Positions 4,926 through 49,218 of a DNA stretch of 64,000 nucleotides are shown piece after piece (the stretch's first letter is position 1; every line of letters starts with the position of its first letter). The DNA is from an uncultured Tateyamaria sp. (GTDB lineage: Bacteria > Pseudomonadota > Alphaproteobacteria > Rhodobacterales > Rhodobacteraceae), in the NCBI RefSeq assembly GCF_947487805.1, contig NZ_CANKXW010000003.1, positions 62,001 through 126,000 of the forward strand, given 5' to 3'. The position numbers and the translations under genes were made by a program. Below the pieces are notes generated by a model, which was not told where the DNA came from, made no database searches, and was given only the letters and a program-made list of their open reading frames with translations.

Positions 4926-5681
4926 ATGGTGCAGCGGCTGATCGTCCATGCGGGCTTTCACAAGACCGGCACGACCTCGATCCAGAAGGCGCTGAAGGCG
5001 CATCGCGCGCAGTTGCGGCCCCATGCCCGCGTCGGCCTGCGCCCTGCGATTGTCGGTCTGTGCGAGGCCGCGCGCGCCTATTCCGTCAGCCGCAGCGCGC
5101 TGGATCTGGGGCTGGTGCGATACGAGGCGGCAGAGCTGGCGAGTGCGTGGGCGGAGCGGGACGGCACGCTGCTCTTGAGTTCCGAGGACCTGAGCGGCCA
5201 TATGCCCGGACGGCGGGGCCTTCAGGCCTATGACGCCACGCCGAAATTGATGGCGGCGATGGTCGAGGTCTGGCGCGCGGTGTTGGGGGATGTAGGGATC
5301 GATCTGGTGTTCACCACCCGTGAGGCTGGCCCGTGGCTGGCCAGTTGTCATATGCAGCATCTGCGCGCGACGCGGATCACGCAGGCGCAAGAGGACTATG
5401 TCCGCGATTATGCCGGGTCTGCCGATCTGGACGGGATCGTCGATGCGGTTGCTGCGGCGGTGCCGGGGGTGCCCGTCCACCGCTTCGCGCTCGAAGACGC
5501 GCCTTTTGGTCAGATTCTGGCGTTGGCGGGCGTGCCAGAGGACCTATGGCCCGCGATGCCGCATCGCAACCGGGGCGAGCCTGACAGCCTGCGCGCGACC
5601 TTGCTGGAGATCAACCGGTCGGACCTGTCAGACGACGACGCCCGCGCCGCCCGCAAGGCCGCCATGCAGGCCAAGGCTTGA
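4926..5681 (+). CDS. sulfotransferase-like P-loop protein
   Basis: 251 residues beginning LIVHAGFHKTGTTSIQKAL (about 5-23), the PAPS-binding 5'-PSB loop found in sulfotransferases and related nucleotide-binding proteins. The rest of the sequence is poorly conserved; LLLSSEDLSGH and DLVFTTREAGPW resemble the following strand-loop elements of the fold. It starts 3 bases after rimM and precedes trmD, so it is co-transcribed with two RNA-modifying genes, but nothing links it functionally to them. The acceptor could be a glycan or other surface molecule; catalytic activity is inferred from the fold only. Confidence 0.65.
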   Translation: MVQRLIVHAGFHKTGTTSIQKALKAHRAQLRPHARVGLRPAIVGLCEAARAYSVSRSALDLGLVRYEAAELASAWAERDGTLLLSSEDLSGHMPGRRGLQAYDATPKLMAAMVEVWRAVLGDVGIDLVFTTREAGPWLASCHMQHLRATRITQAQEDYVRDYAGSADLDGIVDAVAAAVPGVPVHRFALEDAPFGQILALAGVPEDLWPAMPHRNRGEPDSLRATLLEINRSDLSDDDARAARKAAMQAKA

Positions 5682-5737
5682 AACCGCAGGCGCCTTGCGC
5701 CCATAAGCCGCCCCAGACCCCGCGTGAGTGATGTGAC

Positions 5738-6535
5738 ATGACCGGACCTTCGAAATCCCATGGCCGCAAGGCGATCCGGCCCACCCTGCGGCCTGCGTCG
5801 CTGATGGACGAAGCGCCCGATCTGGTGGGCGTCTGGCAGGCGCGCATCGTGACGCTGTTTCCCGAGACATTCCCCGGCGTGCTGGGTGCGTCGCTGACCG
5901 GCAAGGCGTTGCAGGACGGTAAATGGCAGCTGCACACCCACGACCTGCGCGCCCATGGCGTGGGCAAGCACCGCAACGTCGATGACACGCCTGCGGGCGG
6001 TGGCGCGGGCATGGTGTTGCGCGCCGATGTGGTCAGCGCGGCCCTCGCCGAGGCGCAATCGCACGCCCGCGGGCGCTGGCCGATCCTGTACATGTCCCCG
6101 CGGGGACGCCCCTTCGATCAGGCCATGGCGCGCGATCTGGCGCGCTGTGACGGGGTGACGATGCTGTGCGGTCGGTTCGAGGGCGTGGACGAGCGGGTGC
6201 TGGAACACTGGGGTGTGACCGAGGTGTCGCTGGGTGATTTCGTGATGACCGGCGGCGAGATTGCGGCGCAGGCGATGCTGGACGCCACCGTGCGCCTACT
6301 GCCGGGCGTGTTGGGCAATGCCGAAAGCGCGGTGGAGGAAAGCCATTCGAACGGGTTGCTGGAGCATCCGCAATACACCCGCCCCGCCACGTGGGAAGGG
6401 CGCGACATCCCCGAAGTGCTGATGTCCGGCAACCACGGCAAGATCGCGGCGTGGCGGCAGGAGATGTCGGAGGAACTGACCAAGGAACGGCGACCCGATC
6501 TGTGGGCCGCCGCACAAGGCAAAGCTGAGCGCTAA
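5738..6535 (+). CDS. trmD: tRNA (guanine-37-N1) methyltransferase
   Basis: 265-residue SPOUT methyltransferase that makes m1G37 next to the anticodon and prevents +1 frameshifting. The core begins near residue 35 (WQARIVTLFPETFPGVLG), continues with RNVDDTPAGGGAGMVLR, and contains the trefoil-knot AdoMet site YMSPRGRPFDQ, LLCGRFEGVDERV and EVSLGDFVMTGGE. The N-terminal extension of about 34 residues is longer than in E. coli. The gene ends in a 4-base convergent overlap with the VWA gene. Together with rimM it forms the translation-factor part of this operon. Confidence 0.95.
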   Translation: MTGPSKSHGRKAIRPTLRPASLMDEAPDLVGVWQARIVTLFPETFPGVLGASLTGKALQDGKWQLHTHDLRAHGVGKHRNVDDTPAGGGAGMVLRADVVSAALAEAQSHARGRWPILYMSPRGRPFDQAMARDLARCDGVTMLCGRFEGVDERVLEHWGVTEVSLGDFVMTGGEIAAQAMLDATVRLLPGVLGNAESAVEESHSNGLLEHPQYTRPATWEGRDIPEVLMSGNHGKIAAWRQEMSEELTKERRPDLWAAAQGKAER

Positions 6536-7803
6536 CTGCGGCACACGCCGCCTGCATAGCTTCCAACGCTGCGTTTGACCGCGCTTGGCGCGGCTTCGAT
6601 CCGACGCCCGGTCAATTCGCTGCGCAACACCCGCGTCATCAGGTTGGTCAACGACGTGACGCGGTAACAGGACACCGTGGGCTCTGCATGCGGGTTGCCC
6701 ACGCCGCTGTCATCGGTGAGGAACATATATCGCCCGCCCGTCGCGACCGCACCCTGACGCATGAGGAATTCGAGCTGCGCCTCGGCGCCGCTGGCGGCCA
6801 GACCAAAGACCTGCACACCTTTGACGGCGGCCTTACGGGCTGCGGTGTAGTAGACGCCCACCTGATCGCGATGTGGCGGCTCGTCCCCGATCTGGATGAT
6901 CAGACGTTCCCCACGGCCCCGGCGCCAAGGCAGGGCAACGGCCGTCTCAAGCGATTGCGCCACGGCTTCGGGGTAGCCACCGCCGCCACTTGTGGGCAGC
7001 TCGCGCTGCAACCACCGTTGGAAATGGGACCTGCCTTTGGCAAAGCCGTAGTCCCGCACCGTGTACACATCGCCCCGCGATTTGTAGGTGACAAGGCCCA
7101 GCCGCAGGTCGACACCCCGGGCGGTCGCGCTCACTATCGCCCCCAAATCCGAGATCAGCCATTCGATTTCGTCCGTCATGCTGCCCGTCGTATCCACCAC
7201 AAAGACAAGGTCGACGAATTGCGGCTGCCACGCATGATCCGTGTCCAAGGCGACGATAGTCCGCCTGCCGTTCGTGCGCAGGGTCGCCTGTGTGGCCGGG
7301 CCGTCGTCGTTCGGAAACGCACGCAGTTCAATTCTGTCGGACCGGCGCGCATCCAGCACCGCCGGGAAGGCGGTGATCATGCCATCGACGCCGGAATACC
7401 CTTCGTAAAACGGGTCTGTTGCGCCGGGGTGGCGCAAGGTGAACCGAACACCCGGGGCTGGCGTGCCCGTCGGACCCACAAGTTGCGCCAGCACGGGTTT
7501 GGACAGGTTCATACGCTGCCATTTCAGGTGCCGCGCGGCGCGGGTCTGGTATCGCATAAGCGCGGAGAGGTTCAGGCCGTCATCGATGTCGCCCGCTGTC
7601 AGAACGCCGGATGGCGGCAAGGGGCGCCGTTGGGGTGCGGGGGCCACGGGTGAATTGGGACGCGGCGCGGTGATCGGTACAGCGCTTTCCTGAACGATGA
7701 CAGGCGCTTCGATAAGCGGTTCGACAACCCCGCCCCCCGGCGTGCAGGCCGCAACCCATGCCCCCGCAAAGAGCACGCAAAACAGTCGCTTGGGTATAAT
7801 CAT
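6532..7803 (-). CDS. VWA-domain lipoprotein
   Basis: 423 residues. A signal peptide ends with a lipobox-like CVLFAGAWVAAC, giving a lipid-anchored Cys near residue 20, followed by a proline-rich linker. The central von Willebrand A domain carries a MIDAS motif DLVFVVDTTGSM and extends to about residue 340. Such proteins bind partners through a metal ion at the cell surface or periplasm. ATG 7803 is chosen over upstream codons because TTGGAG lies 7 bases before it. It is divergent from the DUF6502 gene across a 63-bp region with two identical operators. The partner and role are unknown. Confidence 0.72.
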   Translation of the reverse strand: MIIPKRLFCVLFAGAWVAACTPGGGVVEPLIEAPVIVQESAVPITAPRPNSPVAPAPQRRPLPPSGVLTAGDIDDGLNLSALMRYQTRAARHLKWQRMNLSKPVLAQLVGPTGTPAPGVRFTLRHPGATDPFYEGYSGVDGMITAFPAVLDARRSDRIELRAFPNDDGPATQATLRTNGRRTIVALDTDHAWQPQFVDLVFVVDTTGSMTDEIEWLISDLGAIVSATARGVDLRLGLVTYKSRGDVYTVRDYGFAKGRSHFQRWLQRELPTSGGGGYPEAVAQSLETAVALPWRRGRGERLIIQIGDEPPHRDQVGVYYTAARKAAVKGVQVFGLAASGAEAQLEFLMRQGAVATGGRYMFLTDDSGVGNPHAEPTVSCYRVTSLTNLMTRVLRSELTGRRIEAAPSAVKRSVGSYAGGVCRS

Positions 7804-42979: not shown

Positions 42980-43020
42980 TTGCTGACGTCGAAACCCATG
43001 GCGAAGGCTTGCCTGATGCG

Positions 43021-44568
43021 ATGACTTGGCGGCCTGCTGACGGCATGTCCGATCCAAAACCCATCCGAAAAGGGCGCAGCGCGCGCAAACGGGCCCGCGC
43101 CGCCGGGCCACCGATGAACCCCGCCCCACCCGGTCAGCGTGGCGGGCAATACGCGCCGCTGTCATCCAGCGATGTGAGCAACATTTATACAGCCGCGCTG
43201 CGACTGCTGGCAGAGCTTGGGATGGGCGAGGTGCCGGACCGGTTACACGACGTACTTGTCGCGGCAGGCGCGCAGCCCTTGGCCAACGGGCGCGTCGCCC
43301 TGCCTGCGGCCCTTGTCGAAGAAGCCATTGACGCCGCCCCCAAATCCTTTCCCTTGCATGGCCGCGATCCTGCCCGGACCATCGAAGTGGGCGGAGACGC
43401 CGTTCATTTCGGCACGGGCGGCGCGGCAGTGCAGACCCTCGACAGGCAATCCCGCCGCTACCGCGCGTCGACGCTGGCGGATCTGCATGACTTTACCCGC
43501 CTTCAGGACACGTTGACCAATGTCAGTTGGTTCACCCGCTGCTGCATCGCCGGGGATATGCCGGATCCGTGGCTTTTGGACGTCAACACCGCCTACGCGC
43601 TCCTGCGCAACACCACGAAACCCGTGGCGACGGCCTTTACCCTGCCCGAACATGTGGCCCCGCTGGTGGCCATGTTCGACATGGCCGCCGGTGGTGCGGG
43701 GCGCTTTGCCGCGCGCCCCTTCGTCAAGGCGCATATCAGCCCGGTGATTTCCCCCATGCGCTTTGGCGAGGATGCCGTTGACACGGTGTTCGAATGCCTT
43801 GCTCACAATATCCCGCTCAGCTGCATCACCGCCGCCCAGGCCGGGGCAACGGCGCCTGCGACCCTTGCGGGCTTTTTGTCGCAATCGCTGGCCGAAACGC
43901 TGGCCAGCCTTGTGATGGTGCACGCGATCAAACCCGGCCACCCGATGGTCTTTTCCAACTGGCCGCTGGTCATTGACCTGCGCAGCGGGGCGTTTTCAGG
44001 CGGGGGTGGCGAGATTGCCGTGATGAACGCCGCATCGGCGCAGATCATCAACCATCTGGGTCTGGTCTCCGGCGTGGCGGCCTCCATGACCGATGCCAAG
44101 GCGATCGATGCGCAATACGGCGTGGAGAAGGGGCTGACCTCGCTGGCCGCCGCACTGGCCGGGGGCAACCTGATCTATGAAAGCTCGGGCATGACCGCGG
44201 CCCTGCTGGGCGCCAGTTTCGAGGCGTTCGTGCTGGATGACGAGATGCACGCCGCCACCTACCGCATCCTGCGCGGCGTCGAAGTGTCAGAGGATGCGCT
44301 GGATCATCAGGGCATTTGCGACGCGGTTCTGGGCGAGGGGCACTTCCTGGGCGGTGCCGCGACCATCGCGGCGATGGAGCGGGACTATGTCTATCCCGGG
44401 CTCGCGGACCGGGACACGCCGCGCACGTGGGAAGGCACCGGTGCGCTGACCGCATGGGACCGGGCCGCGGCGCGCGTGGACGAGATCCTTGCAAACCACC
44501 ACCCGTCCTATATCGATGAGGCAACCGACGCGGCGATCCGCGCCGCCTTCGACATCCGCCATCCCTGA
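43021..44568 (+). CDS. non-pyrrolysine MttB-family methyltransferase
   Basis: 515 residues related to trimethylamine methyltransferase MttB but with an uninterrupted frame, so no pyrrolysine codon. Family-like segments include TALRLLAELGMGEVPDRL, FHFGTGGAAVQTLDRQSRRYRAST and GVEKGLTSLAAALAGGNLIYESSGM. Homologues without pyrrolysine include glycine betaine methyltransferases that pass a methyl group to a corrinoid protein. Start is uncertain: ATG 43021 has GAAGG upstream; ATG 43045 is an alternative. No corrinoid protein gene is adjacent. Confidence 0.88.
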   Translation: MTWRPADGMSDPKPIRKGRSARKRARAAGPPMNPAPPGQRGGQYAPLSSSDVSNIYTAALRLLAELGMGEVPDRLHDVLVAAGAQPLANGRVALPAALVEEAIDAAPKSFPLHGRDPARTIEVGGDAVHFGTGGAAVQTLDRQSRRYRASTLADLHDFTRLQDTLTNVSWFTRCCIAGDMPDPWLLDVNTAYALLRNTTKPVATAFTLPEHVAPLVAMFDMAAGGAGRFAARPFVKAHISPVISPMRFGEDAVDTVFECLAHNIPLSCITAAQAGATAPATLAGFLSQSLAETLASLVMVHAIKPGHPMVFSNWPLVIDLRSGAFSGGGGEIAVMNAASAQIINHLGLVSGVAASMTDAKAIDAQYGVEKGLTSLAAALAGGNLIYESSGMTAALLGASFEAFVLDDEMHAATYRILRGVEVSEDALDHQGICDAVLGEGHFLGGAATIAAMERDYVYPGLADRDTPRTWEGTGALTAWDRAAARVDEILANHHPSYIDEATDAAIRAAFDIRHP

Positions 44569-44578
44569 GAGGTCCCCG

Positions 44579-44980
44579 ATGCCCGTCAAAGACACCCACG
44601 CCATGATCGCCGGCATGACCCCCGTTCTCGATCCCGGCGACTGGGTGTTTTGCGCCGTGACCGGGGCGGGTGCCCTGCCTGCCGATGCCTTCGCTGTCAT
44701 TCAAGAGGCCGAGGGCACGACCCTGATCCTGCCGCAGGCGACAGCGCAAGCGGGTGGATACGACAGCAGCCCGGTGATGAAAAAGATCACGCTCGAGGTG
44801 AATTCAGATCTGGAAGGTGTCGGCCTGACCGCCGCCGTAGCAACCGCACTCGCAGCCCAGGACATCCCGTGCAATGTCGTGGCTGGTTATCACCACGACC
44901 ACATTTTCGTGCCCCAAGGCATGGCCGGGGCGGCATATGCCGCGTTGCAGACCGTACAGGAGGCAGCGCAGGGCGCGTAG
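44579..44980 (+). CDS. ACT-domain protein of the DUF2241/COG3602 type
   Basis: 133 residues. MIAGMTPVLDPGDWVFCAVTGAG, AFAVIQEAEGTTLILPQATA and GLTAAVATALAAQDIPCNVVAGYHHDHIFVP match a small family of double ACT-like proteins of unknown function. GAGAGG at 44566-44572 precedes ATG 44579, 10 bases after the MttB gene; the two are probably co-transcribed. ACT folds bind amino acids, so a sensor role is possible. The tRNA repeat array begins 5 bases after its stop. Confidence 0.82.
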   Translation: MPVKDTHAMIAGMTPVLDPGDWVFCAVTGAGALPADAFAVIQEAEGTTLILPQATAQAGGYDSSPVMKKITLEVNSDLEGVGLTAAVATALAAQDIPCNVVAGYHHDHIFVPQGMAGAAYAALQTVQEAAQGA

Positions 44981-44984
44981 GGTT

Positions 44985-45391
44985 CGGGGCATTCCCACCC
45001 TTTGAACCAGCGTGCCGCCAAAGGCGGCGCGCGTCGCCCCGGCAGCGTAGCCGCGTAGCCGATGCGCGAGAGGGGCCGGTCCAACAATCTGCACCGGTCG
45101 GCCAGGCCCCTCGCAGGCGCTCGGGGCATTCCCACCCTTTGAACCGACCACCGGACGCTTCAATTTTCTTCGAAAACCGGATGTGAATGGTGGCGTGGGG
45201 GAGACTTGAACCAGCGTGCCGCCAAAGGCGGCGCGCGTCGCCCCGGCAGCGTAGCGGCGTAGCCGATGCGCGAGAGGGGCCGGTCCAACAACTTCAACCG
45301 GTCGGCCAGGCCCCTCGCAGGCGCTCGGGGCATTCCCACCCTTTGAACCGTCCACCGGACGCTTCAATTTTCTTCGAAAACCGGATGTGAA
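44985..45391. repeat. tandem 204-bp repeat array abutting tRNA-Met
   Basis: No gene in this 400-bp stretch. Modules in order: M1 (44985-45008), R1 (45009-45121), M2 (45122-45145), G1 (45146-45187), T1 (45188-45212, a copy of the tRNA 3' end), R2 (45213-45325), M3 (45326-45349), G2 (45350-45391), then the tRNA. The exact period is 204 bp, with a few substitutions between copies. R has hairpins GCCGCC-AAA-GGCGGC and GAGGGGCC...GGCCCCTC; G has TTTTC-TTC-GAAAA. All junctions are at TTGAAC, the complement of the tRNA T-loop. Confidence 0.93.
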
Positions 45392-45468
45392 TGGTGGCGT
45401 GGGGGAGACTTGAACTCCCGACCTATCGATTATGAGTCGATCGCTCTAACCAACTGAGCTACCGCGCC
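45392..45468 (-). tRNA. tRNA-Met (CAT), elongator type
   Basis: 77 bases including encoded CCA. Cloverleaf: acceptor GGCGCGG/CCACGCC, D arm GCTC...GAGC, anticodon stem ATCGA/TCGAT with loop CTCATAA, T stem GGGAG/CTCCC with loop TTCAAGT. The ACTCATAAT context matches elongator Met; tRNA-Ile2(CAT) is less likely. The acceptor stem has one mismatch, C5-A68, and A68 lies in the 24-base 3' part that is copied at 45188-45211. Confidence 0.92.
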
Positions 45469-45522
45469 ACTGGAGGCGTGACCTATGCCAGCCCCCGGGA
45501 GTCGTCAAGACCGAAATCGGGC

Positions 45523-46566
45523 TTAACCACCCCGGACCGTCTCGATCATCAGCGTCACGTTCTCCGGGTCGGCATCCGGCGTGATCCCGTGGCCCAGATT
45601 GAAGATATGCGGCCCCTTCGAAAACGCCTGCACAATCGCGCGCGTCTCATCCACCAACGCCTGCCCGCCGGTTACCATATGCGACGACGCAAGGTTGCCC
45701 TGCACACACCCGCCCGTTTGCACATGCGCGGCCCCCCACTCCGGCGAAATCGAATTGTCCAGCGCCACACAGTCCACGCCAGTGGCCGCGTGGAACCCGA
45801 TATAGCCATCGCCCGCCTCGCGCGGAAAGCCGATGACGGGAATATGCGGATAGCGCGCCTTGATGGCCGCCGTGATCTCGGCGCAAGGCGCAACGGCATA
45901 TTTCTGGAACGCCTCGCCCTTGAGTGACCCAGCCCAGCTGTCGAAAATCTTGACGACCTCGGCCCCGGCATCGATCTGGGCGGCGAGATATTCGATGGTC
46001 GCGGCCGTGATCCGCGCCAACAGCGCCTCGAACGCCGCGACATTGCCCTGCATGAACGCATGCGCCGGCCCCTGATCCGGCGTGCCGCGCCCTGCGATCA
46101 TATAGGTCGCAACCGTCCACGGCGCACCGGCAAAGCCGATCAATGTGGTGTCTTCGGGCAACTCGCGCCGCAGGATGCGCACGGTCTCATAGATCGGCGA
46201 CAGCGTCTCGTGAATGTCGTCCACCGGCTTGAGCGCATCAACCCCGGCCTGATCGGTGATCGTGGACAGACGCGGCCCCTCGCCTGTGACAAACCACAGA
46301 TCCGCACCCAACGCCTGCGGCACCAGCAGGATGTCGGCAAACAGGATCGCCGCATCAAACCCGTAACGGCGGATCGGCTGCAAAGTGACCTCGGCGGCCA
46401 GCTCGGGGTTGTAGCACAGCGACAGGAAATCCCCGGCCTGCGCGCGGGTGGCGCGATATTCGGGCAAATACCGCCCGGCCTGACGCATCATCCATATTGG
46501 CGGCGTCGGCAATGTCTCGCCCGCCAGCGCCCGCAAAATCGTCTTGCCCGTTCCGCCATCTTTCAT
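45523..46566 (-). CDS. hemE: uroporphyrinogen decarboxylase
   Basis: 347 residues, family length. HemE converts uroporphyrinogen III to coproporphyrinogen III. Diagnostic [21 protein letters not shown] near the N-terminus contains the substrate-binding Arg residues; [18 protein letters not shown] and [16 protein letters not shown] follow. ATG 46566 is chosen because AGGGA lies upstream; ATG 46584 is possible. Divergent from hemC with a TGT-N12-ACA site between them. Confidence 0.96.
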
Positions 46567-46596
46567 TGCAGAAGTCCCTATCATGCCGTTTACAGT

Positions 46597-46614
46597 TGTC
46601 AGGATAAGTTGACA
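46597..46614. promoter_or_regulatory. CrtJ/PpsR-type site between hemE and hemC
   Basis: TGTCAGGATAAGTTGACA fits TGT-N12-ACA with inverted TGTCA/TGACA ends. It sits 30 bp from hemE and 18 bp from hemC, where a repressor could block both promoters. Confidence 0.6.
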
Positions 46615-46632
46615 CACTTAAAAGATAAACCC

Positions 46633-47589
46633 ATGACAGTGCGACTTCCTACCCCTTCCGCGCCGCTCCGTATCGGAACGCGCGGCTCGCCCCTGGCCCT
46701 GGCCCAGGCCCACGAGACCCGCAGACGCCTGAGCGCTGCGTTCGATCTGCCGCTCGAGGCCTTTGAAATTGTTGTGATCAAGGTCACAGGCGATGATCGG
46801 TCGATGATTGCCGCCGACCGCCCGCTTAAGGAAATCGGCAACAAGGGCCTGTTCACCCGCGAGATCGAAGAAGACCTGATCGCAAGCAAGATCGACATCG
46901 CCGTCCACTCGATGAAGGACATGCCGACCGTCCAGCCCGAGGGGCTGATTCTCGATACCTACCTGCCGCGCGAGGACGTGCGCGACGCCTTTGTGTCGCC
47001 AAGCCTGTCGCAGATCACCGATCTTGCCCAGGGGGCGACGGTCGGCACCTCGTCCCTGCGCCGCCGCGCGCAACTGCTTAACAAGCGCCCCGACCTGAAC
47101 GTCGTCGAGTTTCGCGGCAACGTGCAGACACGGCTCAAGAAACTGGGCGACGGTGTGGCCGATTGCACGTTTCTGGCCTGCGCCGGGCTGAACCGGCTCG
47201 AAATGACGGACGTTCCCGCCACGCCGGTTGATCCCGCGCATATGCTGCCCGCCGTGGCCCAGGGCGCCATCGGCATCGAACGGCGCATGGATGACGCCAA
47301 CACCCAGACCCTGCTGGCCGCGATCCACGACACGCCCACCGGACAGCGTCTAGCGGCGGAACGGCAGTTCCTGTTCACGCTCGATGGCTCCTGTGAAACC
47401 CCGATTGCGGGGCTGGCGACGCTGGACGGTGATACGCTGACCCTCACCGGCGAAGTGTTGCGGCCCGACGGATCCGACGCACTGTCCGGCAGCCGGACAG
47501 GGGCTGTCGCCGATGGCCCCGCGATGGGCACCGAACTGGCGCAGGATCTGCTGAAACAGGCGGGGCCGGGGTTCTTCGACTGGCGCTGA
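46633..47589 (+). CDS. hemC: porphobilinogen deaminase (hydroxymethylbilane synthase)
   Basis: 318 residues. Joins four porphobilinogen units using a dipyrromethane cofactor bound to the Cys in LDGSCETPIAG. RIGTRGSPLALAQA, KVTGDDRS, HSMKDMPTVQPEGL, GTSSLRRRAQLL and EFRGNVQTRLKKL are classic HemC motifs. Divergent from hemE, so two tetrapyrrole steps share one control region. Confidence 0.97.
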   Translation: MTVRLPTPSAPLRIGTRGSPLALAQAHETRRRLSAAFDLPLEAFEIVVIKVTGDDRSMIAADRPLKEIGNKGLFTREIEEDLIASKIDIAVHSMKDMPTVQPEGLILDTYLPREDVRDAFVSPSLSQITDLAQGATVGTSSLRRRAQLLNKRPDLNVVEFRGNVQTRLKKLGDGVADCTFLACAGLNRLEMTDVPATPVDPAHMLPAVAQGAIGIERRMDDANTQTLLAAIHDTPTGQRLAAERQFLFTLDGSCETPIAGLATLDGDTLTLTGEVLRPDGSDALSGSRTGAVADGPAMGTELAQDLLKQAGPGFFDWR

Positions 47590-47631
47590 TCGCCCTTGAC
47601 CGCAGGGCCGCATCGGGCCCACGATCTGCAC

Positions 47632-49218
47632 ATGCCCACCCCGAACGGCGACCTGCCGACCCACCAGGTTGAAAACCAACCCCCGCCCCTAGGCGACCGG
47701 GATTTCTATCTCTCCGATCCGATCCTGCGCGCCACGGCCCCGCGCACTCTGCAACCATACGGCACCGCAATGGGCGCGCAGGACACACAGGCCCACGCAC
47801 GCGACGCCAACCGCAACCGCCCCGAACTGATGACCTTCGACGCGGGCGGGCGACGACTGGACGAGGTCCGGTTTCATCCCGCCTACCACCACATGATGAC
47901 GCTCAGCCAATCGGCTGGCTACGCCGCCTGCGCCTGGGACGGCGGCAGCCACCTGGAACACGCGGCCATGGTCTACATGGCCAGCCAGGTCGAGCCGGGC
48001 CACTGCTGCCCCCTCACCATGACCTACGCCGCCGTGCCTGCCCTGCGCGCCAACCCCGAAATCGCCGCAGCGTGGGTGCCCAAACTGACCGCGCGCGCCT
48101 ACGATCCAAGCGTCCGCCCCGTCGCACAGAAACGCGCGGCAACATTGGGCATGGCCATGACCGAAAAACAGGGCGGCTCGGACGTGCGCGCCAACACCAC
48201 GCAGGCCACGCCCGACGGTGAACACTGGCGGCTGACCGGACACAAATGGTTCTGCTCCGCCCCGATGTCCGACGGGTTTCTTACGCTGGCGCAGACGGAT
48301 GGCGGCCTCACCTGCTTCCTCGTGCCCCGCTGGCTCGAGGATCAGCGCAACAGGATCCACCTGATGCGGCTCAAGGACAAGCTCGGCAATATCTCCAACG
48401 CCTCCGCCGAAATCGAATATCATGACGCCTTTGCCATGCAACTCGGCGACACAGGGCGCGGCGTGCAGACCATCATCGAAATGGTGCACCACACCCGGCT
48501 CGACACCGCCATGGCACCCGCCGGTCTGATGCGCGGCGCGCTCACCCACGCACTGCACTGGGTCAGACACCGCCGGGCGTTCCAGAAAACTCTAATCGAT
48601 CAACCACTTATGCAGGCCGTCCTCGCCGACATGATCCTCGACTGGCACACCGCCACATGGCTCGGCCTGCACGTGGCCACCGCCTTCGATGACCCCGACG
48701 CCCGCCCCTTCGCACGCATAGCCGTCGCGCTGGCCAAGTTCCTCAACAACAAACTCTGCCCCCGCGTCACTTACGAGGCGATGGAGGCCATAGGCGGCAT
48801 GGGCTATGTCGAGGATACCGCCCTGCCGATGTTCTATCGCGAAGCACCGCTCAACAGCATCTGGGATGGGTCCGGCAACGTGATCTGCCTCGACATCCTG
48901 CGCACCCTCGCCCGCGACCCACAAGCCCGCGACGCGCTGCACGCTGCCCTGTCCACACCACGCGGCACAGATGCACGCTTCGATCAGGCCCTGAGCGCGT
49001 GGCACACCCGCTGGCGCGGCAATCCAGCGGAAATCGAGGCCCGCGCCTTTGCCGAACACACCGCCCTCCTGCTGGCCGGATCCGTCCTGATCCAGCACGC
49101 CCCCCACGCCGTCGCCGACGCCTTCATCACCAGCCGCCTGCACGCCCCGAACGGCCATATCGCAGGCAGCACAACCGGCCTCGACACACAGACGATTCTC
49201 AAAAGCTTCACGGACTGA
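47632..49218 (+). CDS. acyl-CoA dehydrogenase, AidB-like
   Basis: 528 residues. Acyl-CoA dehydrogenase fold with LGMAMTEKQGGSDVRANTTQA, GHKWFCSAPMSDGFLTLAQ, YEAMEAIGGMGYVEDTALPMFYREAPLNSIWDGSGNV; these and the length place it in the AidB/isovaleryl-CoA-dehydrogenase-like group. AidB itself is linked to alkylation damage, but many homologues are of unknown substrate. ATG 47632 is used; no good ribosome site is seen. Follows hemC in the same direction without evident functional link. Confidence 0.85.
   Translation: MPTPNGDLPTHQVENQPPPLGDRDFYLSDPILRATAPRTLQPYGTAMGAQDTQAHARDANRNRPELMTFDAGGRRLDEVRFHPAYHHMMTLSQSAGYAACAWDGGSHLEHAAMVYMASQVEPGHCCPLTMTYAAVPALRANPEIAAAWVPKLTARAYDPSVRPVAQKRAATLGMAMTEKQGGSDVRANTTQATPDGEHWRLTGHKWFCSAPMSDGFLTLAQTDGGLTCFLVPRWLEDQRNRIHLMRLKDKLGNISNASAEIEYHDAFAMQLGDTGRGVQTIIEMVHHTRLDTAMAPAGLMRGALTHALHWVRHRRAFQKTLIDQPLMQAVLADMILDWHTATWLGLHVATAFDDPDARPFARIAVALAKFLNNKLCPRVTYEAMEAIGGMGYVEDTALPMFYREAPLNSIWDGSGNVICLDILRTLARDPQARDALHAALSTPRGTDARFDQALSAWHTRWRGNPAEIEARAFAEHTALLLAGSVLIQHAPHAVADAFITSRLHAPNGHIAGSTTGLDTQTILKSFTD

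Follow-up and report, generated by a model that had tools for sequence, protein, structure and literature searches.

Why does the end of a tRNA gene recur, at a regular spacing, downstream of the gene itself? The question is raised by an array behind a tRNA-Met gene in a DNA stretch of 64,000 nucleotides from an uncultured Tateyamaria sp. (the window, analysed at its full length). Our analysis indicates that this array represents a single locus of a family of short, non-coding hairpin elements. The elements are found downstream of a host gene, in most cases one of five tRNA genes and in one case sodB, and separate its 3' end from the sequence that comes next, which is often a terminator-like hairpin.

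Structure of the array downstream of tRNA-Met

The array occupies positions 44984-45468 of the minus strand. It starts with a tRNA-Met gene (anticodon CAT, with encoded CCA; 45392..45468, detected by ARAGORN and by the Rfam tRNA model at 71.8 bits), which is the source of the repeated 3' end. The first element (45212..45391, 180 nt) extends from the tRNA CCA to a 24-nt copy of the tRNA-Met 3' end (45188..45211, T-loop to CCA, GTTCAAGTCTCCCCCACGCCACCA) that has no mismatches in its last 23 nt. Direct reading of this element revealed a hairpin, TTGAAGCGTCC-GGT-GGACGGTTCAA (45343..45367), and the R module (45212..45281), which consists of two hairpins, CTCGCGCA-stem-TACGCTG and GACGCGC-stem-ACGCTG, and has the hairpin motif common to the type-1 elements described below. 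The copy is followed by a second element (45008..45187). A first-pass annotation had noticed tandem 204-bp units with a copy of the tRNA-Met end, and these were readily recovered as two direct repeats of exactly 204 nt (45002-45205 and 45206-45409; 97% identity), each composed of a 180-nt element and a 24-nt segment. In unit 1 this segment is the tRNA-Met 3' end, whose last 24 nt have one extra copy in the array, between the two units. Unit 2 is closed by a copy of an element-internal segment (45007-44984) which also starts with GGTTCAA; in this terminal stretch (44984..45007) GTTCAA is joined to element-internal AGGGTGGGAATGCCCCGA and the tRNA end is absent. A 25-nt segment occurred three times in the array, at 44984, 45121 and 45325. 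Next to the array is a convergent gene on the plus strand (44579..44980) with an ACT domain (Pfam ACT_3 and ACT_7), and by eye the sequence after the tRNA-Met locus in several relatives was like that at this gene.

Several statements of the first-pass annotation could be refined on this basis. GGTTCAA, which it had placed at every R boundary, is indeed found at the boundaries of these units, but one GGTTCAA per unit is internal and lies in the TTGAAGCGTCC-GGT-GGACGGTTCAA hairpin. It had also assumed that the tRNA was restored each time; the tRNA gene is intact, but the last unit ends in the element-internal segment. The 204-bp period, ascribed to repeated insertion, is local and reflects tandem duplication of one unit. 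As to the proposed lack of coding capacity, no known gene is present within the units, but a 187-codon frame runs across the array on the tRNA strand (44804-45367, minus). This frame had no Pfam match, is uninterrupted in both units, as 204 is a multiple of 3, and was taken as spurious. An annotated frame (tpr) is also carried by the E. coli tyrT repeats. In an Rfam scan of positions 43000-48000 of the window (E<=1), tRNA alone scored above the gathering threshold, and the predicted fold of the tRNA together with the array was not unusual (z -1.30).

Copies of tRNA 3' ends elsewhere in the genome

We identified 39 tRNA matches in the genome that contains the window and searched the 1,300 nt downstream of each for its terminal 25 nt; 38 were testable. 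Near-exact copies of their own 3' ends were found for five of these genes: Met (copy at +179, 1 mismatch of 25 nt), Ala-GGC (copies at +92 with no mismatches and at +294 with 1), Thr-GGT (+90, no mismatches), Val-CAC (+147, 3 mismatches) and Val-TAC (+87, 2 mismatches). A sixth match, for tRNA-Asp, was a true second tRNA gene at a contig end. For the remaining 32 genes (the set without the five copy-bearing genes, the Asp gene that precedes a second full Asp gene and the Asp gene at a contig end), no 25-nt match in the same downstream range had fewer than 9 mismatches, which excludes chance as an explanation for the copies. At all five genes, the copy was preceded by a GC-rich hairpin of one kind. 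The idea of a structured non-coding element that recurs at tRNA 3' ends and leaves the tRNA whole was thus borne out, and the competing possibility of a single local duplication was refuted by the copies at the Ala, Thr and two Val genes and by the occurrence of copies at the same five tRNAs across the genus. Two neighbouring tRNA-Asp genes were present at the start of one contig (C7:2-193) and the same tRNA at the end of another (C11:146424-146500), probably representing one assembly break.

Type-1 elements and their distribution

The commonest unit of the family, designated type 1, has a length of ~114 nt and combines an ~85-nt element with 28-31 nt of tRNA. Its organization, as seen at the tRNA-Met loci of relatives, is CCA, a spacer of ~45 nt, GG, the arm, nn-ACGCGC, a short stem-loop and ACGCTG, followed by the tRNA T-stem, T-loop, acceptor strand and CCA again. 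The T-loop sequence GGTTCAA had been proposed as a general junction; in this main form, the junction is instead at GTC / first T-stem base.

A covariance model of the type-1 core had matches in 18 of 20 Tateyamaria genomes, and the other two (G011 and G019) were element-free. We examined 87 loci of the five tRNAs in these genomes, comprising covariance-model matches and loci found by pattern (13 of the 100 genome-by-tRNA cells were without data). Extra copies of the own 3' end, defined as having up to 7 mismatches in 23 nt, were present at 48 of them: Met 10/20, Ala 12/17, Thr 11/18, Val-CAC 7/13 (including a doubtful one in G010, at +74 with 6 mismatches) and Val-TAC 8/19. The first copy started at +85 to +97 in 41 of the 48 loci, and the number of copies per locus ranged between species from none to three. 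A recognisable copy was absent from 39 loci, some of which retained the element (Thr in G001 and G017, Met in G012 and G015); Ala in G015 and G017 was scored as copy-less merely because the contigs end there, and contig ends of these two genomes (L163 and L160) hold such Ala arrays. At several loci, the element was not followed by a copy or the last unit was truncated, and many copies were decayed. Draft contigs were found to break within arrays (L163 at the start of G015:C3, L160 at the end of G017:C10), suggesting that copy numbers in short-read assemblies are probably too low.

Outside the genus, matches were detected in 8 of 198 genomes of the family (one per genus, the genome of the window included), where they again followed tRNA-Met, tRNA-Thr and tRNA-Val genes, with sodB as the host gene in G230. 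At the class level, 1 of 385 genomes matched, namely the genome of the window. These large-scale searches were strictly filtered, and both counts are lower bounds. A loosely defined hairpin pattern was not very informative across the genome (398 matches versus 240 in the control), and 6 of the 17 stretches from a contig scan seem to be chance matches, with no tRNA found there. One 8.5-kb contig of Sulfitobacter sp. DFL-14 (L212) contained two element arrays (5580-5900 and 7090-7330) behind truncated 3' parts of tRNA-Val, resembling the attR ends of islands that enter at the anticodon loop. In addition, the RNase P RNA of the genome of the window (RF00010; L173, C5:118970-119016) has a hairpin, CTTACGGGCA-stem-TACCCTGAG, that scored 28 bits with the element model; the likeness is either fortuitous or due to an element hairpin that resides in the ribozyme.

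Match between the hairpin arm and its target

The basal 5' arm of the hairpin differed by target: it was reverse complementary to the 6-9 nt with which the copied tRNA segment begins (the variable-loop/T-stem start). The arm was CCCGAC for GTCGGG at Met and Val-TAC, CCTGAC for GTCAGG at Val-CAC, TCTCGAC for GTCGAGA at Thr and CGCTGAC for GTCAGCG at Ala, where the genome of the window has CGCCGAC (one mismatch). Compared with tRNA types of different sequence, the own tRNA gave the strictly longest arm match in 56 of 72 units, tied in 10 and was worse in 6; this test took in type-2 and composite units, the source of several failures. One genome (G095) has a variant tRNA-Thr with GTCGACA, and the arm there is TGTCGAC, next to a decayed copy.

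Paired positions of the hairpin changed together. With all 65 type-1 units (59 distinct rows), covariation was 0.390, compared with 0.149 (sd 0.011) in shuffles and at most 0.114 in slid controls, and doubly changed cells numbered 164 versus 59.7 in shuffles. Similar values were obtained with one unit per locus (0.393 versus 0.152, 49 loci) and with 42 hand-picked cores (0.393 versus 0.151), which comprise 41 of the 65 tRNA units plus the sodB member and omit tandem duplicates and some atypical rows. Two cruder measures of the five applied to these cores did not stand clearly above the shuffles (pairs with a double change, 12 versus 10.4; further pair types, 23 versus 24.5). The shuffles ignore relatedness; the slid control, which keeps it, was far lower, although the structure was drawn from the tested sequences themselves, which favours it over slid controls. 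The pair beside the arm, encoded by the element on both sides, was Watson-Crick (T-A, C-G or G-C) in 43 of 47 parsed loci, compared with 0 of 20,000 shuffles; 3 of the 65 units were unparsed, and two of the four non-pairing loci (Met in G017 and Val-TAC in G092) look like parse errors that were counted as failures. Compensatory pairing that includes a pair of the element's own suggests, at the level of sequence, that the hairpin fold seems to be selected and not merely inherited with the copied target.

A member downstream of sodB

In G230, the same hairpin was found directly behind the stop codon of the iron superoxide dismutase gene sodB (Pfam Sod_Fe_N and Sod_Fe_C). The last 33 nt of sodB are repeated after the hairpin (5 mismatches by eye), and the repeated stretch begins, in sodB itself, with GTCAATTGG, to which the arm CCAATTGAC is reverse complementary. 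Further downstream are another hairpin, which is degenerate, and after it a terminator-like hairpin. A duplicated gene end with a matching arm behind a protein gene implies that the rule is not tRNA-specific, and the element is not confined to tRNA T-loops as had been thought.

The sodB member also bears on the possibility that the direct repeats are scars of attachment sites, left by tyrosine-integrase islands which entered these tRNA genes and lost nearly all of their cargo. Direct repeats that extend to the tRNA 3' end are a usual feature of tRNA attachment sites, and the arrays behind truncated tRNA-Val halves in Sulfitobacter DFL-14 fit such an origin. One study also describes partial tRNA copies left by integrative elements (PMC9897764). 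However, the cargo in our set is nearly constant (80-92 nt in 64 of 72 units), and a conserved, target-matched hairpin at five tRNAs and sodB is unexpected for independent deletion remnants. In addition, a search with the window array recovered no similar sequence among 72,556 plasmid and 50,697 phage records. An origin from degraded islands is therefore highly improbable.

Type-2 and composite units

The units in the window belong to a longer form, designated type 2, with a leading hairpin and a double hairpin (R), the latter having the CGCGC-stem-ACGCTG motif in common with type 1. A type-2 unit also follows type 1 at tRNA-Ala in the same genome (L002), and composites of R and type 1 were present at tRNA-Thr in G003 and G010. 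R-related stretches in the genome of the window were located at C3:175380, C1:407274, C5:200010, C1:414178 and C11:142819; those at C5:200010 and C1:414178 are R-like double hairpins without a tRNA. The type-2 junction is at GGTTCRA. A target-complementary arm was visible at Ala (TTGAAC preceding the R module) and was not clear at Met. In G010 (L067), past the tRNA-Met copy, the leading hairpin of a type-2 unit can take in the CA of CCA plus the trailer, with CATCAAATTC pairing with GAATTTGATG. A locally matched arm may also exist at the left end of type-2 elements.

Empty sites, possible movement between loci and local amplification

Empty sites in relatives, which would be expected for an insertion, do exist. 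At Val-CAC, a terminator-like hairpin (TCAAAAGCACACC..GGTGTGCTTTTG) comes straight after CCA in G001 and G007 (a similar one is present in G013) and after the end of the copy in G003 and G005. Comparison of these empty and filled sites places the element plus the duplicated tRNA end between CCA and the terminator-like hairpin. An empty site may never have held the element, or may have lost it precisely, given that the duplicated ends form direct repeats; such losses by recombination would also yield "empty" sites, and this was counted against insertion.

One genome, G014, provided examples of apparent movement. Its Met and Val-TAC elements are 96% identical, and each is followed by a copy of its own tRNA. 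A third, near-identical whole unit with the Met 3' end lies alone on another contig (L138, C10:11900-13300), ~200 nt from a NikA-like mobilisation gene (MobC was below the cut-off) and with no tRNA gene within the 1.4 kb examined; homology of its left flank with G016 and G007 ends at the element border. Mobility is thus supported, as far as sequence comparison goes, by one cross-locus case and one ectopic copy, both in G014. Elsewhere, spacers of different loci were unrelated (median likeness 0.57-0.62), with similar values within one genome between different tRNAs (0.60) and across species at the same tRNA (0.62). Adjacent units within an array, in contrast, had a median of 0.96. The spacer comparison suggests that movement between loci is rare and amplification within loci common; the single near-identical cross-locus pair likewise suggests that recent transposition is rare. 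Presence of the same five loci in most species is compatible with vertical inheritance. Many loci can accordingly be explained by vertical inheritance and local duplication, without the repeated insertion at the tRNA that had been proposed.

The near-identity of neighbouring units could also be produced by hairpin-driven replication slippage, in which the arm pairs with the T-stem start, the growing strand re-primes and the tRNA end and element are duplicated in tandem, with neither mobility nor function. Several arrays end in a partial unit or a copy-less element, the type-1 junction lies at the hairpin end, where the arm would place it, and the E. coli tyrT copies are tandem too, all of which agree with slippage. 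It does not account for the single-unit loci (Val-CAC, G003 and G005), which end in the copy followed by the empty-site sequence with no second hairpin, as insertion would give, and it leaves unexplained both the first arrival at five tRNAs and sodB with matching arms and the ectopic unit in G014. We consider slippage as the whole explanation to be distinctly unlikely.

Sequence constraint and a possible role in the transcript

Orthologous loci with spacer identity below 0.6 showed divergence of 0.27-0.30 in the hairpin, about half of the 0.47-0.55 in the spacer, and 0.13-0.16 in the copy; for 13 closer pairs, the values were 0.22, 0.33 and 0.12. A 10-nt slice with the arm diverged nearly as fast as the spacer (0.30-0.44), in part because the slice does not track the arm exactly. 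Copies resembled their own tRNA: no more than 2 of 28 nt were mismatched in 43 of 65, and each of the 12 Thr copies examined was nearest to the allele of their own species among the variants present. Such tracking could result from selection acting on the transcript, from gene conversion involving the tRNA or from recurrent renewal.

These data could indicate an RNA trailer similar to rtT, an ancestral 3' extension of five pre-tRNAs, in which the hairpin and copy act in the transcript (in 3' processing, release of a small RNA or as a decoy) and the tandem units owe their amplification and their homogeneity to ordinary recombination. The slower divergence of the hairpin, its strong compensatory pairs and the closeness of copies to their own tRNA would all fit, the Val-CAC elements precede the terminator-like hairpin and are therefore probably inside the transcript, and E. 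coli rttR/RtT offers a precedent. On the other hand, the sodB member is no tRNA trailer, 39 of the 87 loci have no recognisable copy (although some of them keep the element), many copies have decayed, and folding gave no sign that the arm or element influences the acceptor's choice of 3' end. On balance, a trailer function appears somewhat unlikely as the basis of the family.

The folding analysis had been concerned with a more specific idea, an insulator or RNA switch in which the arm masks the extra 3' end. In Vienna predictions for 31 units, the 5' acceptor strand paired with the distal copy with real, shuffled or swapped elements (0.80-0.85 versus 0.84), which implies that the preference for the distal copy comes from the energy model and the copy and not from the element. 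Scrambling of the arm in 39 units also had no effect on the predicted choice of 3' end (p 0.15 and 0.64), and the switch was rejected for now.

A possible insertion mechanism

The explanation that we tentatively favour, at a little less than an even chance, is insertion with target duplication coupled to an attC-like recognition of a folded strand. Units carry a copy of the last 28-33 nt of the host gene, which is itself intact, and the hairpin is closed by pairing between the element arm and the initial 6-9 nt of this copy. The element would duplicate this target end on insertion, and the folded single strand, consisting of arm, hairpin and target start, would be recognised by a recombinase encoded elsewhere, in the way that integron integrases recognise attC. 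Recombination between the direct repeats of 28-31 nt may subsequently add units to arrays or remove them, and the 204-bp array of the window would be a larger type-2 member that was duplicated once. The attC-like recognition is suggested by the fold alone, and the finding that no recombinase was linked to the elements argues against insertion.

A bolder form of this proposal is a new class of minimal mobile element, built of an attC-like hairpin and a target-complementary arm, which inserts behind genes, duplicates their last 28-33 nt and has its target chosen or acquired by base pairing of the arm. Such an element would be programmable and gene-sparing, with its enzyme outside the element; we regard this form as rather doubtful. 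If the arm does specify the target, it would represent base-pairing-guided insertion that spares the host gene.

Comparison with known systems

A literature search, confined for the most part to freely accessible papers, found none that seemed to describe such repeats. In the literature searched, they therefore stand as an undescribed family, real and recurrent, of target-matched hairpin repeats at gene 3' ends.

Islands that integrate into tRNA genes resemble these repeats in having a direct repeat from the T-arm to CCA at both ends (attL/attR) and in restoring the gene. In contrast, the cargo here is ~85-180 nt and non-coding, no integrase is present inside, and the same hairpin occurs at several tRNAs. 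REP/BIME sequences and their RAYT proteins (Y1_Tnp) are similar in that short imperfect hairpins are dispersed in a bacterial genus, and we know of no REPs that duplicate host gene ends. A RAYT helper was rejected, as Y1_Tnp was detected in only 4 of the 20 genomes, 3 of them above the cut-off. It was found in both element-free genomes, G011 and G019, and was absent from the genome of the window and most carriers.

Integron attC sites are imperfect hairpins whose outer arms need only mutual complementarity; they have a short fixed boundary motif, GTTRRRY, and form tandem arrays. By this general description, the covarying hairpin of the type-1 units may be attC-like, and a short fixed boundary motif and tandem units are seen here as well. 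The repeats differ in lacking cassette genes, in the boundary, which is GTC plus target with GTTRRRY not seen, and in that each unit restores the host gene end.

The closest case is the E. coli rtT RNA and tyrT repeats (RF00391; rttR), so the unit, of a kind that the first-pass annotation could not name, does have a named precedent. In both cases, a tRNA gene is followed by non-coding units in tandem, and each unit terminates in a repeat of the tRNA 3' end that includes CCA. RtT RNA is a separate RNA that is released from the transcript of the tRNA. Copies of the tRNA-Tyr 3' end at E. coli tyrT/tyrV (4 mismatches in 23 nt) comprise three behind tyrV, 178 nt apart, and one between tyrT and tyrV, and by reading of the sequence, a 10-nt stretch of the E. 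coli element, GGGGAAGGAT, is the reverse complement of the copied ATCCTTCCCC. The RtT covariance model, which gave four matches in the positive control (E. coli tyrT), had no match in positions 43000-48000 of the window (E<=1) or in nine further loci (eight arrays and sodB; E<=0.1), where tRNA alone was above threshold in Rfam; the elements were therefore not filed as RtT. They also differ from rtT in occurring at five tRNAs and sodB, in having a different unit, and in an arm that pairs with the 5' side of the T-stem, compared with the 3' side in E. coli. To our knowledge, the E. coli tyrT repeats have been treated as an isolated oddity. A tyrT-like architecture is now seen in one genus and a small number of relatives, downstream of five tRNA genes and a protein gene. 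Its hairpin is matched to each target and kept by compensatory changes, and tail repeats can now be tested in several cases as mobile elements, functional RNAs or by-products of replication.
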